Positions 12,706 through 37,061 of a stretch of DNA of 44,858 nt are shown piece after piece (position 1 is the stretch's first letter; every line of letters begins with the position of its first letter). The stretch is from Myxococcaceae bacterium (lineage in GTDB: Bacteria; Myxococcota; Myxococcia; Myxococcales; Myxococcaceae), in NCBI GenBank assembly GCA_019694575.1, contig JAIBBR010000028.1, positions 1 to 44,858 on the forward strand. The letters are read 5' to 3'. A program made the position numbers and the translations under genes. Below the pieces are notes generated by a model. That model ran no database searches. It was given only the letters and a program-made list of their open reading frames with translations, and was not told the DNA's origin.

Positions 12706-13215
12706 CTACACCGCGGGAGCCGCCGCACCGGGCTCCACCGTCGCCGCACGAGGCTCGAGCGCGTAGGTCAACTTCGACAGCACTTCTTGTGCGTGCTCAA
12801 TCTTGACGGCTTCAAGCTCGGCGATGGCCTGCTTCACCGCTGCTTCAACCGTACCTTCTGAATTCAAATCGGTTTCACGGCCCTTCTGGGTCAGCCCCAA
12901 AAAGGCGCGCCGGCGGTCTCGCGGGTGAGGCCTTCGGGTAATCAGCTCCAACGCTTCGAGCCGCTTCAAAATGCCCGTCAGCGTGCTGGGGTGAATATGC
13001 AGAATGCCCGCCAGCTCGCGCGCGGCAATGCCGGGAAAACGGCCCACCATGCGAACCACCAACCGCTGCGGCCCGGTCACTCCCAACTGGGTCACCATGC
13101 GCTTCGACGACTTTTGCAATGCGTGATCAAGCGCCCAAATGACACGCAAGAACTCAAGCACGTCGCCCAACGGGGGCACGGCCTCACTCTCTCTCATCGA
13201 ACTTTCGGTGGTCAC
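12706..13215 (-). CDS. MarR-family regulator of the trehalose operon (predicted)
   Basis: A 169-residue winged-helix regulator. The core includes LGVTGPQRLVVRMVGRFPG, the recognition region ARELAGILHIHPSTLTGILK and the wing RPHPRDRRRAFLGLT, in the order expected for MarR. A Pro/Ala tail ends the protein. The GTG start at 13215 is fixed by AGGAGG five bases upstream and lies 1 base beyond the otsB stop, so it is the last gene of an otsA-otsB-marR operon. An AT-rich MarR-like palindrome in the otsA/GH15 divergent region at about 16.26 kb is the obvious candidate target. The ligand is unknown. Confidence 0.9.
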   Translation of the reverse strand: MTTESSMRESEAVPPLGDVLEFLRVIWALDHALQKSSKRMVTQLGVTGPQRLVVRMVGRFPGIAARELAGILHIHPSTLTGILKRLEALELITRRPHPRDRRRAFLGLTQKGRETDLNSEGTVEAAVKQAIAELEAVKIEHAQEVLSKLTYALEPRAATVEPGAAAPAV

Positions 13216-13216
13216 T

Positions 13217-13993
13217 TTAGCCTCCTGCTCGCTGTTGATGTTCACCGCCCGCGCGTAGCTCGAGCAGCACCTTGAGAAGCTCGTCAATTTCTCCCTGATT
13301 CAACAAACAATATGTCGCCAAAGACTTCGCGCTCGAGCCAACTCGAATGGTGAGGAGCCTGCCGGGTTGGTCTAACGTGAAAACGTCTTCGTCGGTTTCG
13401 TCATCTCCCACGTAAATGGCGGTATCGCAATGAAGCCGCGCCCTTTCTCGTTCGAGCGCCATGCCTTTGTGCGGTGCATCGAAGGGCAAAATGTTCACCA
13501 CCGCCTTACCGCCGATGATGCGTACCGGCCCCAAACCGACCGCCGCCTTCAAAATGGCCCGCCGCGCCTTCTTCTTCGCGCGCGAACGGCGGTAATGCAC
13601 CGCCACCGAGAAATTTTTGTCTTCCACGCGCACGCCCGGCAACGTCTTGGCCAGTTGCTGCAGTGCCGGCAGCCACCCGCGCACTTCTTTGACAAAGCGC
13701 TCGCTGCCTTCCCACGGTTCAAGGCCATGGTTGCCGACGATGCTCACCACCTTCACCCCTTGCAGCCGCTCCCGCGCGTCGGCTTGCGCCCGCCCCGAAA
13801 TCACCGCGCAGGGGTAGCGCTGGGTCACTTGTTCTAACAAGGCATGCGTCGAAGGCCGCATGAAGGCTTGCTTGGGGTCAGTCACAATGGGAGCCAACGT
13901 ACCGTCGTAATCGAAGGCCAACAGCACGCTCGACCACGCGAATTGCTGCAGCACGCTGCGGTTGGTCTTCGAGAGTATGCGCATCATGGTCAT
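13217..13993 (-). CDS. otsB: Trehalose-6-phosphate phosphatase
   Basis: A HAD-superfamily phosphatase that removes phosphate from trehalose 6-phosphate, the second step of the OtsAB pathway. The nucleophile motif FDYDGTLAPI lies near residue 30, the second motif is VISGR, and the Mg-binding motif GDDETDEDVF is near residue 200. The length of about 258 residues is typical. The ATG at 13993 is chosen; a GTG at 14005 is possible and would extend it by four codons. Either way it abuts or overlaps the otsA stop at 13998-14000, so the two are translated from one message. Confidence 0.93.
   Translation of the reverse strand: MTMMRILSKTNRSVLQQFAWSSVLLAFDYDGTLAPIVTDPKQAFMRPSTHALLEQVTQRYPCAVISGRAQADARERLQGVKVVSIVGNHGLEPWEGSERFVKEVRGWLPALQQLAKTLPGVRVEDKNFSVAVHYRRSRAKKKARRAILKAAVGLGPVRIIGGKAVVNILPFDAPHKGMALERERARLHCDTAIYVGDDETDEDVFTLDQPGRLLTIRVGSSAKSLATYCLLNQGEIDELLKVLLELRAGGEHQQRAGG
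13221..13226 (-). promoter_or_regulatory. Shine-Dalgarno AGGAGG for marR
   Basis: AGGAGG lies within the last codons of otsB, five bases before the GTG at 13215. It decides the marR start against upstream in-frame alternatives that would overlap otsB. Confidence 0.8.
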
Positions 13994-13997
13994 GGCT

Positions 13998-16241
13998 TCA
14001 CCCACCTTCCGCGGTCAACAAATGCTCACTGAGCCTGCCGGTCAGGCGGTCACGGCGACGCAACCGCGCGGCGTCGACCAACATGCGGCCCGCCCAACGG
14101 TACACGTTGAACTCAGCCACGAATGACCGCATCGAGCGCATGCGGTCTTGCTGCTCTTCTACGCTCATGTTGAGCGCCATCACCAAAGCCGACGCGGCTT
14201 CGTCGAAGTCGTACGGGTTGACGATGAGCGCTTCGGTCAGCTCGTGCGACGCACCGGTGAAGCTCGAGAGCACCAGCACGCCCTTTTCGTCGTCGCGCGC
14301 GGCGATGAACTCTTTCGCCACCAAGTTCATGCCGTCATGCAGGCTGCTCACGTAACAAAGGTCGGCCGCCCGGTAATACTTGAAGACGGTGGGCGGCTCG
14401 TGGTGCGCGCGAAACAGAACAATCGGCCGGTAATCGTCGCGGCCGAAGCGCTGGTTGATGCGCTGGGCCGTGGCCTCGATTTGCGCGTTGAGCTGCTGGT
14501 AGCGCTCAATCACCGTGCGGCTGGGGGCGGCCAACTGCACGAAGGTGAACCGGCCCACGAAGGCGGGGTAGCGCTCGAGCATGCGCTCCACGGCCAAGAG
14601 CCGCTCTTCGATGCCCTTGGTGTAGTCGAGCCGGTCGACGCCCACGCCCAAAAGCGCGTCAGGCTTCAAACCCAGCTCGGCAAAAACCGCGGCCCGGCAT
14701 TCGGCCACCGGGGGCGAGAGCTGCGCCCAGTGGTTCGGCCACTCCACTGAAATGGGGTACGGCCGCACCAAGGTGGCGCGCTGGTGGTGCACGATGGCGC
14801 TCTGCCCACGGTCGGTGCGCGACTCCATGAAACGCTCGACGCTGTCGACGAAGTTGTTGCAGTGCACGGGGGTGTGAAAACCCAGAATCGAGCTGCCCAA
14901 CATGCCTTCCAACAATTCGTTGCGCCACGGGCAAATGCCGAAGCGCTCTGAATTGGGCCACGGTATGTGCCAGAACATCAGCACCGTCGCGCGCGGCAGA
15001 CGGTCGCGAATCATCTTCGGGGCCAGCGCGAAGTGATAGTCCTGCACCAAGATAATGGGGTCGGGCGAGTCGACTTCTTCACACACCGCGTCGGCGAACT
15101 TTTGATTCACCGCGCGGTAGCACTTGTAGTCTTCACCGCGAAAGAGCGGTCGGGTGTGCGCCAAGTGACACAACGGCCACAGCCCTTCGTTGGAAAAACC
15201 GTAATAGTAGCCTTTCTCTTCTTCGGGGCTGAGCCACACCCGCCGCACCACGTACGACTCTTCGCCGGGAGGCACCTTCACCCGCCCCTTCGCATCGACC
15301 GTGGCCCGGTCAGCTGAGCCGCCGCCATGCGCCACCCAGGTGCCTGAGCAGGCGCGCATCACCGGTTCGAGCGCCGTCACCAAACCACTCGCCGGGTGCA
15401 ACACCTTGGTGCGGCCGTCTTCGGTGCGCTCATGAATGTACGGCTCGCGGTTGGCGAGAATCACCACCTTCTCGCCGTGCAAGTGACGGTTGAGCGTGTG
15501 CTTCAAGCGCTGCGGAGTCCACGCGCCGCCCTGAATGTCGGCCTCGCGCTCGGTAGAAATGCGGTCTATCAGCTCACGCACGTCTTGCAGCAGAGGCTGA
15601 AACTCTGGCCGCGGCCCGCCGCCTCGCACCAAGCGCCGCAACTCATTTGACCAACTGCGCCATGAGAGCCGTATCGCCACCAGGGTGATGAGCGACGCCG
15701 CGCCCGCCAACACCGCGAAGGCCACCAAAATGAAGCGCTGGGTTTTACCCTCGCGCCGCGCCACGAAATTGAGGTCGTGCACCAGGGCCACGAAGCCGAG
15801 CGGCACGTCTTGGTCGAGCACCGGTATGGTGCTCACTTGCACATCACCGCCGGGCAGAGTGGCCTTGGTCCACCACACTTTCCACTCCGGGCCGGGCGCG
15901 TTGGCCGCCGGCCGTACGTGCAAGCCAAGCTCATTGCAATTGAACCGACGGGGAAAATCTTGGGTCTCGGCGAGCAACGAAGCGTCGGCGTTGCAAGCAG
16001 CCACTCCCATGATGCGCTCGTCGTGCAGAATTTCGGTGAGCAACCCTTTCAGCCCATCGCCCGGGGTTTCCCAATGGCGAATCAAACCCTGCCGGGCTCC
16101 GTTCACCACCAACTGCGCACGCAGGTTGATGTCTTTTTCCCACCAGTCGCGGGTGGTGTCGTGAACCACCCGCCACGCCAAGTAGGTGAGTACCCCCAGG
16201 CAAACCATCAAAACGCCTAGGAACTTAACGACTCTGAACAT
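13998..16241 (-). CDS. otsA: Membrane-anchored trehalose-6-phosphate synthase with N-terminal sensor-like region
   Basis: Makes trehalose 6-phosphate from UDP-glucose and glucose 6-phosphate. The 747-residue protein is far longer than the usual 450-500. The GT20 catalytic domain occupies about 258-730, with ILANREPY at its start, VQDYHFALAP near 399-408, GVDRLDYTKGIEERL near 534-548 and SLHDGMNLVAKEF near 633-645, the motifs holding the substrate-contacting residues. Ahead of it are a transmembrane helix (about 4-24), an extracytoplasmic region of about 145 residues, a second helix (about 170-192) and a linker resembling HAMP/signalling helices, an arrangement typical of receptor inputs. Regulation by an external signal is inference. 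AAAGG precedes the ATG. Confidence 0.93.
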   Translation of the reverse strand: MFRVVKFLGVLMVCLGVLTYLAWRVVHDTTRDWWEKDINLRAQLVVNGARQGLIRHWETPGDGLKGLLTEILHDERIMGVAACNADASLLAETQDFPRRFNCNELGLHVRPAANAPGPEWKVWWTKATLPGGDVQVSTIPVLDQDVPLGFVALVHDLNFVARREGKTQRFILVAFAVLAGAASLITLVAIRLSWRSWSNELRRLVRGGGPRPEFQPLLQDVRELIDRISTEREADIQGGAWTPQRLKHTLNRHLHGEKVVILANREPYIHERTEDGRTKVLHPASGLVTALEPVMRACSGTWVAHGGGSADRATVDAKGRVKVPPGEESYVVRRVWLSPEEEKGYYYGFSNEGLWPLCHLAHTRPLFRGEDYKCYRAVNQKFADAVCEEVDSPDPIILVQDYHFALAPKMIRDRLPRATVLMFWHIPWPNSERFGICPWRNELLEGMLGSSILGFHTPVHCNNFVDSVERFMESRTDRGQSAIVHHQRATLVRPYPISVEWPNHWAQLSPPVAECRAAVFAELGLKPDALLGVGVDRLDYTKGIEERLLAVERMLERYPAFVGRFTFVQLAAPSRTVIERYQQLNAQIEATAQRINQRFGRDDYRPIVLFRAHHEPPTVFKYYRAADLCYVSSLHDGMNLVAKEFIAARDDEKGVLVLSSFTGASHELTEALIVNPYDFDEAASALVMALNMSVEEQQDRMRSMRSFVAEFNVYRWAGRMLVDAARLRRRDRLTGRLSEHLLTAEGG

Positions 16242-16254
16242 AATGCCTTTTTAC

Positions 16255-16301
16255 GCATAAATTTGTTTGTAAGCAAATCAATTAATGCTTACTGTTTATG
16301 C
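16255..16301. promoter_or_regulatory. Nested inverted repeats in the otsA/GH15 divergent promoter region
   Basis: An AT-rich element with two sets of exact 7-base arms: GCATAAA at 16255-16261 pairs with TTTATGC at 16295-16301, and GTAAGCA at 16269-16275 pairs with TGCTTAC at 16286-16292. Inside it, ATTTGTTTGTAAGCAAAT (16261-16278) is an imperfect palindrome of the size MarR proteins bind. It covers the only space between the divergent trehalose genes, so it probably controls both directions. The regulator is inferred to be the MarR protein at the end of the ots operon. Confidence 0.6.
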
Positions 16302-16330
16302 CTGAAACCCGACACCAAGGCGAAAGGGCC

Positions 16331-18097
16331 ATGCGACTCGAAGAAATGGGGTTGATAGGTAACTGCCAGTATTCAGCGCTCATTGACCGCTGGGGCTCGG
16401 TGGTGTGGTGCTGCTGGCCACGGTTCGACTCAGAACCGGTCTTCGGCGCACTGCTCGACGAGAATGACCCAGGCCGCTTCGTGGTGGGCGCCGCTGACGG
16501 CAGCCCCGGCGTGCAGCGTTATCTCGAAAACAGCAACGTGCTCGAGACGCGCTTCAAAACCGACACCGGCAGCTTTCGGGTCATCGACTTGGCGCCGCGT
16601 TACGTGCAGTATGACCGGCTTTTTCGCCCCACCCAGCTCACCCGGGTGATTGAGCCGCTCGACGGTTCACCCCGCGTCAAAGTGCAGTGCCTGCCCAAAT
16701 TGGGCTGGTCAAAGCAGACGCCGCAAGTGCTGCAGGGCAGTAACCACCTGCGCTACGAAGGTTTTCAAAGCCAGCTGCGGCTCACCACCGACATTCCGCT
16801 CTCGTACGTCAACGGCCAACCCTTCACGTTGAACCAGCGGCAACACTTGGTGCTCACTTGGGGGCCCCCCGTCGAAGAAGCGCTTTCGCCGTTGTGCGAA
16901 AAGCAAACCAACGAAACGCTGCGCTATTGGCGGCGCTGGGTGAAGGGCTGCAACATTCCTCCCGCGTACCAGCAAGAAGTCATTCGTTCGGCGTTGGTGC
17001 TCAAGCTGCACTGCTTCGAAGACACCGGCGCCATCGTGGCGTCGATGACCACTTCGATTCCTGAATCGCCCGGCTCAGGCCGCACGTGGGACTACCGCTA
17101 TTGCTGGCTGCGCGACGCGTACTACGCGCTCAACGCGTTTCGGCTGCTGGGGCAATTTGAAGAACGTGAAGCCTTCGCGGCTTACCTGCTCAACATTGTC
17201 GGAGCCCACCCCGACCTCAACCTGCACCCGCTCTACCGGGTCGACGGCCGCTCTGACTTAGACGAAAGCACCTTGCGGCACTGGGCGGGCTTCAACGGCG
17301 AAGGGCCGGTGCGCGTGGGCAACGCCGCGGCCGTGCATTCGCAGCACGACATTTTCGGCGAAATGGTGCTCGCCTTGACACCGGTTTTCTTAGACGACCG
17401 CTTCGCGGCTGAACGCTCCAAAAGCGCGCTCGAGCTGCTCGAGCAGCTGGCACGCAAAGCCATTTCTCTGGCGGGCGTGCCCGACGCCGGCATTTGGGAA
17501 TACCGCACCCAGTGGCAGCCGCAGACCTTCTCGAGCTTAATGTGCTGGGCCGCGGCCGACCGCATGACCACCGTGGCCTCTCGCCATGCGCCGCATTTGC
17601 GCGACGAATTCGCGCAATCAGCCGAGAAAATTCGACAAGAGATACTGACCCAAGCGTGGAACGCCGACGCCCACAGCTTCGTCGGCAGCTACGGCGGCCA
17701 CGAGCTCGATGCGTCGCTGCTGCAGATGGCGCATTTGCGATTCTTGCCGGCTGACGACGCGCGGCTCAACGCCACCCTCGACGCCATTTGGACCACCCTT
17801 TCACGTGACGGCTGGTTGTTTCGCTACAAGCTCGACGACGGCTTTGGCAAACCGAGCGTGGCCTTCATTATCTGCACGTTTTGGTTGGTCGAAGCGCTCG
17901 CGGTGACCCGGCGGTACGACGACGCGCAAAAGGTCATGAAGCACGTGCACGCGGCCCTGTCGCCGCTGGGGCTGCTCTCTGAAGACTACGAGACGTCGAC
18001 TTTGCGCATGTGGGGCAATTTTCCGCAGGCGTACTCACATGTCGGCCTGATTCACGCGGCGTTCTCGGCCAGCCCACGGTGGGCCGACATTCTGTAG
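16331..18097 (+). CDS. GH15 glycoside hydrolase (glucoamylase/trehalase-like)
   Basis: A 588-residue cytoplasmic enzyme of the GH15 family, whose members cleave alpha-glucosidic bonds by inversion. The N-terminal beta domain begins GLIGNCQYSALIDRWGSVVW. The (alpha/alpha)6 barrel shows GSGRTWDYRYCWLRDA. Likely catalytic acids are Glu390 in GIWEYR and Glu551 in LSEDYE, followed by FPQAYSHVGLIHAA. Bacterial homologues include glucoamylases and trehalases; sitting divergent to otsAB, trehalose or a related glucoside is the best guess. The ATG at 16331 with AAAGGG just upstream is preferred, because the ATG at 16298 lies inside the inverted-repeat operator and has no ribosome-binding site. Confidence 0.92.
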   Translation: MRLEEMGLIGNCQYSALIDRWGSVVWCCWPRFDSEPVFGALLDENDPGRFVVGAADGSPGVQRYLENSNVLETRFKTDTGSFRVIDLAPRYVQYDRLFRPTQLTRVIEPLDGSPRVKVQCLPKLGWSKQTPQVLQGSNHLRYEGFQSQLRLTTDIPLSYVNGQPFTLNQRQHLVLTWGPPVEEALSPLCEKQTNETLRYWRRWVKGCNIPPAYQQEVIRSALVLKLHCFEDTGAIVASMTTSIPESPGSGRTWDYRYCWLRDAYYALNAFRLLGQFEEREAFAAYLLNIVGAHPDLNLHPLYRVDGRSDLDESTLRHWAGFNGEGPVRVGNAAAVHSQHDIFGEMVLALTPVFLDDRFAAERSKSALELLEQLARKAISLAGVPDAGIWEYRTQWQPQTFSSLMCWAAADRMTTVASRHAPHLRDEFAQSAEKIRQEILTQAWNADAHSFVGSYGGHELDASLLQMAHLRFLPADDARLNATLDAIWTTLSRDGWLFRYKLDDGFGKPSVAFIICTFWLVEALAVTRRYDDAQKVMKHVHAALSPLGLLSEDYETSTLRMWGNFPQAYSHVGLIHAAFSASPRWADIL

Positions 18098-36352: not shown

Positions 36353-36390
36353 GAGTGCCAATACGGTCATTAGGCGCCGCAACGGCACTC
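36353..36390. terminator. Possible hairpin after the small lipoprotein gene
   Basis: GAGTGCC at 36353-36359 pairs with GGCACTC at 36384-36390 around a 24-base loop. No T-run follows, so it is at best a Rho-assisted or processing structure between two convergent genes. Confidence 0.3.
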
Positions 36391-36437
36391 ACTACGTGTC
36401 GCTTGAAAGAGCGAAGCCCTCGCCCCAATTCGGAGCC

Positions 36438-36471
36438 CGGGCACGCCACCTTCTCGAAGGCAGCGTGCCCG
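36438..36471. terminator. Strong bidirectional hairpin between convergent genes
   Basis: CGGGCACGC at 36438-36446 pairs with GCGTGCCCG at 36463-36471; inside, CCTTC pairs with GAAGG around a 2-base loop, with a small internal bulge between. It stands in the gap between the plus-strand lipoprotein and the minus-strand LprI-like gene. It lacks a U-tract, so terminator function is likely but not certain. Confidence 0.5.
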
Positions 36472-36494
36472 CAAAACTCCAAACCCCAAAATCG

Positions 36495-36908
36495 TTACCC
36501 CCCGAGGTTTGAAATCAACAGGCCCACCGCGGCGATGCGGCTTTGGGTGGTGCGGTACAAGCAGGCCGAACGCGAAATGGCAGCGACGGCCGTGCCCGCT
36601 TCAGCCTTCTCGATGAACTCGCAATGCGAAGTGCGCGACACCACCCAGTCGTATTGTGACTTCTTCAGCACTTCGACCAGCGCGTCTTTCTTCGCGGCCT
36701 TCAACTTGTCGCTCGCGGCGGCGATTTTTTCATTCAGCGTCACTTGCACCGCGCTCACTTCTTTCGCCCAACAAGAAGTCGCTTCGGCTCCTGCCAACCC
36801 TTCGCACGGTCCCGCGGGCGCAGCAGCGGCGGCTGGGGCCGGCGGTGCAGCCAACGCGCTGGAAACCCAGACAAACACGCTCGACGCAATCAACAAACGC
36901 AACTTCAT
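36495..36908 (-). CDS. Secreted LprI-like (DUF1311) protein
   Basis: A 137-residue exported protein. The signal peptide ends near SSALAAPP (about 21). The mature part has four Cys and a helical pattern seen in LprI/DUF1311 proteins, some of which inhibit lysozyme: CEGLAGAEATSCWAKEVS, VTLNEKIAAASDKLK, SQYDWVVSRTSHCEFIEK, GTAVAAISRSACLYRTTQSR. Protection against lysozymes is only family-based inference. The start at 36908 is backed by AGGGGGA upstream; a longer in-frame extension to 37001 would bury the signal peptide. Confidence 0.78.
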   Translation of the reverse strand: MKLRLLIASSVFVWVSSALAAPPAPAAAAAPAGPCEGLAGAEATSCWAKEVSAVQVTLNEKIAAASDKLKAAKKDALVEVLKKSQYDWVVSRTSHCEFIEKAEAGTAVAAISRSACLYRTTQSRIAAVGLLISNLGG

Positions 36909-37061
36909 GAGCTTCCCCCTTGATTGAACTGCAATGAATGAAGTGATGGCCCACCAGCCTGCGGCTCGACCAACGGGCATGTAGAAGTTTAACCCAACCA
37001 AAACTGAAGGCTAAGCCCGCAAACAAAATATCTTGTCACGATGTATGTGCCGCACCCAGTT

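Follow-up and report, generated by a model that had tools for sequence, protein, structure and literature searches.

Genes and inverted repeats at the trehalose locus

The stretch of DNA that we analyzed as a whole (hereafter the window) comprises 44,858 nucleotides of a Myxococcaceae contig and carries a locus for trehalose, a protective sugar, in which an operon on the minus strand, in the order otsA, otsB, marR, is divergent from a GH15 gene. The first gene, otsA (13998-16241, minus strand), encodes a trehalose-6-phosphate synthase of the GT20 family (PF00982, E = 1.5e-120), to which a structural model and a fold search add a predicted N-terminal membrane sensor part. It is followed by otsB (13217-13993, minus strand; start ATG 13993 read from the sequence), encoding a trehalose-6-phosphate phosphatase (PF02358, 5.2e-27), and by marR (12706-13215, minus strand; start GTG 13215), the last gene of the operon, which encodes our proposed repressor. 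The original prediction had described marR as joined to otsB with 1 base between them at the end of the operon, and otsA and GH15 as divergent around the gap, and both statements were confirmed: the junction reads TAA-A-GTG, with AGGAGG directly in front. The MarR protein, with 169 residues and zero cysteines in translation, has a winged helix-turn-helix of the MarR type (PF01047, 2.4e-13; PF12802, 1.7e-12; both over the cut-off) and is the sole strong match in its own genome, where no second match to the MarR profile was found at E = 1e-10. The GH15 protein (16331-18097, plus strand) has both a catalytic domain (PF00723, 6.2e-45) and a trehalase-like N-terminal domain (PF19291, 8.2e-16) and is a probable trehalase; the sole solved sequence relative found for it is a glucoamylase (7.4e-6). 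The likely start of this gene is ATG 16331, the codon aligned with the starts of relatives, and not the ORF start at 16298, so that the gap between otsA and GH15 (16242-16330) is 89 bases long.

Within this AT-rich gap, the original prediction had singled out nested inverted repeats as the probable target of the operon's MarR. The repeats are present as it described them: GCATAAA (16255-16261) pairs with TTTATGC (16295-16301), and can be extended by a tool to a 13-nt pair that is 85% complementary; GTAAGCA (16269-16275) pairs with TGCTTAC (16286-16292); and an imperfect 18-base palindrome (16261-16278) is matched in 7 of its 9 pairs. Among 5,000 dinucleotide shuffles of the gap, however, 13.4% contained at least two exact 7-base arm pairs, making the arms unremarkable, and 19.5% contained an 18-mer palindrome that was equally good or better. 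In the other otsA upstream regions examined, only TGCTTAC recurs among the four arms, and it does so once. The combination of arms and 18-mer, being at chance level and without conservation, was therefore rejected as a functional element and is not supported as a MarR target. A function of the arms in their own right, whether as multi-site operator or as hairpin, is very improbable on the same counts, exact and symmetric around the gap as the arms are.

A conserved palindrome upstream of otsA and its association with marR

The conservation in relatives that the arms lacked was found instead for a 12-base palindrome that overlaps them. The pattern recurring upstream of otsA is TT[T/G]GnnnnC[A/C]AA, often TTGGATATCCAA, and its copy in the window, TTTGTAAGCAAA (16266-16277), lies 24 nt from the otsA start codon and within the 18-mer, the two centres being two bases apart. 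In 19 of 22 matching loci, the window included, the 12-mer starts at -35 to -39 from otsA, while in the other three (L135, L136, L151) it is found at -26 to -30. Of the 5,000 shuffled gaps, 4.6% contained a match at any position, and 0.46% contained one that began at -35 to -39 from otsA. The part of the gap that goes beyond chance, by position and conservation, is this 12-mer.

We propose the 14-mer of which it is the core, GTTTGTAAGCAAAT (16265-16278, no strand assigned), as the MarR operator, based on its conserved position and pattern upstream of otsA and its tie to marR. With a matrix made from 23 operators of other genomes, leaving the window site out, this site ranks second of 44,845 positions, and with a matrix from the 12 operators of its own His type (see below) it ranks fourth; it is nonetheless a weak member, scoring 12.6 bits versus 9.9-21.6 for the 23 matrix members. 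The pattern by itself shows no enrichment in the window (5 found versus 4.04 expected), and no regulon is readable genome-wide, since a search with GTTTGNNNNCAAA gave 28 matches versus 26 for the reversed control. The top matrix match in the window, GTTTGAAATCAACA (36507-36520), falls within an ORF (36355-36927), and chance probably accounts for it.

The association with marR was assessed in 40 stretches from genomes of the same family and order and in 80 further loci, some contigs being present in both samples. The counts cover 107 otsA loci with usable upstream sequence, for which start codons were set by rule as the nearest start to the aligned one. Duplicates (L115, L118, L131, L171) and loci in which the match begins after residue 100 (L099, L100, L105, L132, L161) were left out; the short-type operons L087-L089 also stand outside these counts, the motif being complete in L088, partial in L089 and absent from L087. 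We called a marR gene a strong ortholog at E < 1e-40 with profile A2, there being zero hits between 1e-40 and 1e-22, and adjacent when it lies in or beside the operon, which takes in L067, whose marR is located about 2.7 kb downstream, and L072, where it is on the far side of GH15. The 12-mer was found upstream of otsA in 14/19 loci with adjacent marR, 7/19 with an ortholog elsewhere and 1/69 without an ortholog (Fisher tests against the last class, 2.5e-11 and 5.5e-5), where shuffling leads one to expect 0.08, 0.07 and 0.38 loci, respectively. Many of the genomes are drafts, and those of relatives are not independent of one another; when loci are collapsed at 80% OtsA identity, the counts become 14/19, 5/14 and 1/49 (1.3e-9 and 1.5e-3). 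The first relatives supplied the pattern itself, so that testing it on them is partly circular, and the loci found after the pattern was fixed provide a fairer test: among them, the 12-mer is present in 7/9 with adjacent marR and 1/65 without an ortholog. Two loci had the motif without an adjacent marR (L109, L113), and a later search of their genomes revealed strong orthologs in both (2.6e-54 and 2.3e-49).

Full matches also lie directly upstream of four marR genes that are unlinked to otsA, all from genus g38 (L008, L014, L016, L020), and a fifth such gene (L004; G086) has a near match, in which 12 of 14 letters are the same as in the G086 otsA site. These four are the only ones among 31 distinct unlinked genes with a full 12-mer within 220 nt, the other 27 having none; the orthologs of L188, L192 and L193 have no full match within 160 nt upstream. 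At otsA itself, a full match is absent from 12/19 loci with an unlinked ortholog and from 5/19 with adjacent marR, and the motif was looked for and not found at the short-type OtsA loci L057-L060. Five loci (L135, L136, L145, L149, L151) count less, because a AAAGTAAACT-like stretch beside their palindrome also occurs without marR and because their marR genes belong to a distant subfamily. When these are set aside (leaving OtsA identities of at least 55%), the 12-mer is found in 11/15 loci with adjacent marR and in 0/20 without an ortholog.

The AAAGTAAACT-like stretch was seen by eye shortly before otsA, with or without marR, in L135, L145, L151, L156, L158 and L172; it occurs in Bdellovibrionota, Nitrospira and some deltaproteobacterial loci and may be a further element belonging to a promoter or a regulator. 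In many genomes of the same family (L003-L030), a close ortholog of the window MarR (about 50-58% identical) is encoded apart from otsA, and the palindrome is missing upstream of it. The nearest relative of the window MarR is its sister in G002, where the contig ends inside otsA and the otsA upstream region is off the contig.

The recognition helix of these MarR proteins carries Asp or His at one position, with Thr in one further row. The operator centre is ATAT in 10/11 cases with Asp and in 3/17 with His, all three from the distant subfamily; the Asp type forms one clade, so that this covariation amounts to one or few events. For this comparison, the L074 site was paired with the MarR of a congener, G079 (L098), and not with that of G083 itself. 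Covariation between helix and operator is the pattern that direct contact would give.

Promoter geometry and a proposed repressor circuit

On the otsA side of the relatives, the first half of the palindrome reads TTGGAn and is followed in many of them, after 17 nt, by TA. Of the 22 motif loci, 11 have a TA placed 12 nt ahead of the otsA ATG, a spacing that would put the transcription start at about the otsA start codon. By eye, the GH15 side mirrors the otsA geometry in L064, L066, L120 and L125. It follows from this geometry that two such promoters sharing the 12-mer need 35 + 35 - 12 = 58 bases, and the gap measures 55 to 60 bases in 10 of the 13 adjacent-marR loci with divergent GH15. Read in the same way, the window would hold an otsA promoter at 16248-16276 (minus strand; TTGCTT at 16276-16271, 17 nt, TAAAAA at 16253-16248, then 6 nt to the ATG at 16241) and, as its mirror, a GH15 promoter at 16267-16295 (plus strand; TTGTAA at 16267-16272, 17 nt, TACTGT at 16290-16295). 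Both are weak candidates, and a sigma-70 scan of the gap reported no promoter. The GH15 leader in the window would be about 29 nt long, a ribosome site preceding 16331.

We consider it likely that 16265-16278 is the operator of the operon's own MarR, from which otsAB, marR and the probable trehalase gene GH15 would be jointly repressed until a ligand releases the protein. A MarR dimer on the palindrome would cover the otsA -35 region and, given the symmetry of the palindrome and its place between back-to-back promoters, that of GH15 too; with both -35 boxes blocked, otsA-otsB-marR and GH15 would be repressed. As marR is the last operon gene behind this operator, MarR would limit its own level, acting as a local, self-limiting repressor, and it would be released by a ligand, which may be a sugar or sugar phosphate of the pathway. 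The comparison of sequences supports the operator position, the co-occurrence with marR, the putatively autoregulatory copies in one genus and the covariation of helix and operator. We infer binding, repression rather than activation (proposed from the position of the palindrome), the effect on GH15, the ligand and the GH15 substrate. In naming this gap as the target of the operon's own MarR, the original prediction thus chose the regulator and the gap well, as argued by marR co-occurrence, autoregulatory copies, a prediction that was borne out in two genomes and helix/operator covariation, and missed most of the letters. Its further claim, that synthesis and hydrolysis are switched together, may hold, given that the palindrome lies at the -35 of both genes in relatives; the GH15 half is weaker in the window, where GH15 starts 53 nt from the palindrome versus about 23 in relatives, which is further than in most.

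This distance would fit a narrower reading, in which MarR controls otsAB and itself from the site while GH15 in the window escapes its control, the GH15 promoter lying elsewhere or being unaffected. We regard this as rather unlikely, though well short of negligible. The weakness of both proposed promoters and the sigma-70 scan speak for it, and in three loci with adjacent marR (L065, L069, L130) the palindrome is present although no divergent GH15 lies within 350 bp; on the other side stand the mirrored TTGTAA-17-TACTGT that can be read in the window, the four relatives in which the GH15 side has the otsA geometry by eye, and the palindrome lying between both genes in 11 of 13 adjacent-marR loci with divergent GH15. 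The same loci bear on whether the palindrome merely arises where two divergent -35 boxes overlap, TTGGAn being read on either strand, and binds no regulator. A palindrome half does fit a -35 box followed by TA, 11 of 22 motif loci having the TA 17 nt on (offset 23) and another 4 at offset 24, but of the 20 loci in which GH15 is divergent and a marR ortholog is absent, just 1 has the palindrome. Tested in this way, a by-product of overlapping promoters is disfavoured, and it appears improbable also because palindromes without divergent GH15 occur at otsA of L065, L069 and L130 and at the unlinked marR genes of L008, L014, L016 and L020, and because the operator centre varies with the MarR helix. 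There is a similarly slim chance that a regulator other than the operon's MarR binds the palindrome: L151 has the motif in a genome with only a weak MarR match (3.2e-12), and five adjacent-marR loci are without a full match, but motif and marR ortholog co-occur across the sample, also in trans, and the MarR profile has a single match in the window's own genome at the threshold given above.

Known MarR regulators and the sensor part of OtsA

Members of the MarR family act as dimers on a short palindromic operator, and local and self regulation are common among them. The nearest solved MarR sequences to that of the window are Tm0710 and OhrR (2a61, 9.4e-10; 1z91, 6.7e-9). The OhrR subgroup has a redox-active cysteine that serves as a thiol switch; no OhrR-type redox cysteine is present in the 169 residues of the window MarR, which makes such a switch unlikely here. 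EctR1 and CosR are MarR-type repressors of genes for ectoine and other compatible solutes (PMC7876524). They resemble the proposed repressor by role, as local MarR regulators tied to a compatible-solute biosynthesis operon and repressing there; the solute is ectoine or betaine and not trehalose, and the portion of that account used here describes no palindrome that the operon shares with a divergent hydrolase gene (PMC7876524). In Corynebacterium glutamicum, the MarR repressor CrtR represses a biosynthetic operon and itself, and pathway metabolites prevent its binding in vitro (PMC5401885); by analogy, our guess is that the MarR ligand may be a pathway sugar. CrtR differs in acting on carotenoid genes, in being encoded divergently to the operon and not by its last gene, and in a target described as TTAA-containing (PMC5401885).

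With an OtsAB pathway accompanied by a GH15 enzyme, the locus shares the otsA, otsB and GH15 families, while OtsA additionally has a membrane sensor part here. Our literature searches, judged from their entries, turned up no MarR regulator acting on otsAB. MarR control of compatible-solute genes is already known from EctR1 and CosR, and control of otsAB would be a new example of a familiar type of switch. For Myxococcota and some other bacteria, the proposal would name an operator and a regulator of trehalose synthesis that are concrete enough to be tested. If a single site does govern both the synthase and the probable trehalase, the cell would be regulating trehalose turnover, and not accumulation alone.

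The first ~255 residues of OtsA (15477-16241, minus strand) match no Pfam family. The N-terminal parts have two invariant cysteines in 34/34 sequences from several phyla. By fold, the model of this part (pLDDT 89) hits sensor kinases, namely WalK (best E, 4.5e-6) and CitA, mostly in their outer domains, so that residues 1-255 are predicted to form a membrane part of two helices bearing a Cache-like outer domain. Judged from this fold, OtsA looks like a membrane receptor with the synthase as its output; literature searches on a membrane-sensor OtsA showed nothing relevant among their entries. A tentative extension, to which we give only limited credence, would be a two-layer circuit: MarR on a palindrome that is the -35 of two back-to-back, nearly leaderless promoters would always switch synthesis and hydrolysis together, and a receptor-like synthase, through an outer Cache-like domain with two invariant cysteines, would set activity from an extracytoplasmic signal. 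Relatives of the sensor-bearing OtsA are found in Acidobacteriota, Nitrospira, Burkholderiales, Geobacter and Bdellovibrionota.
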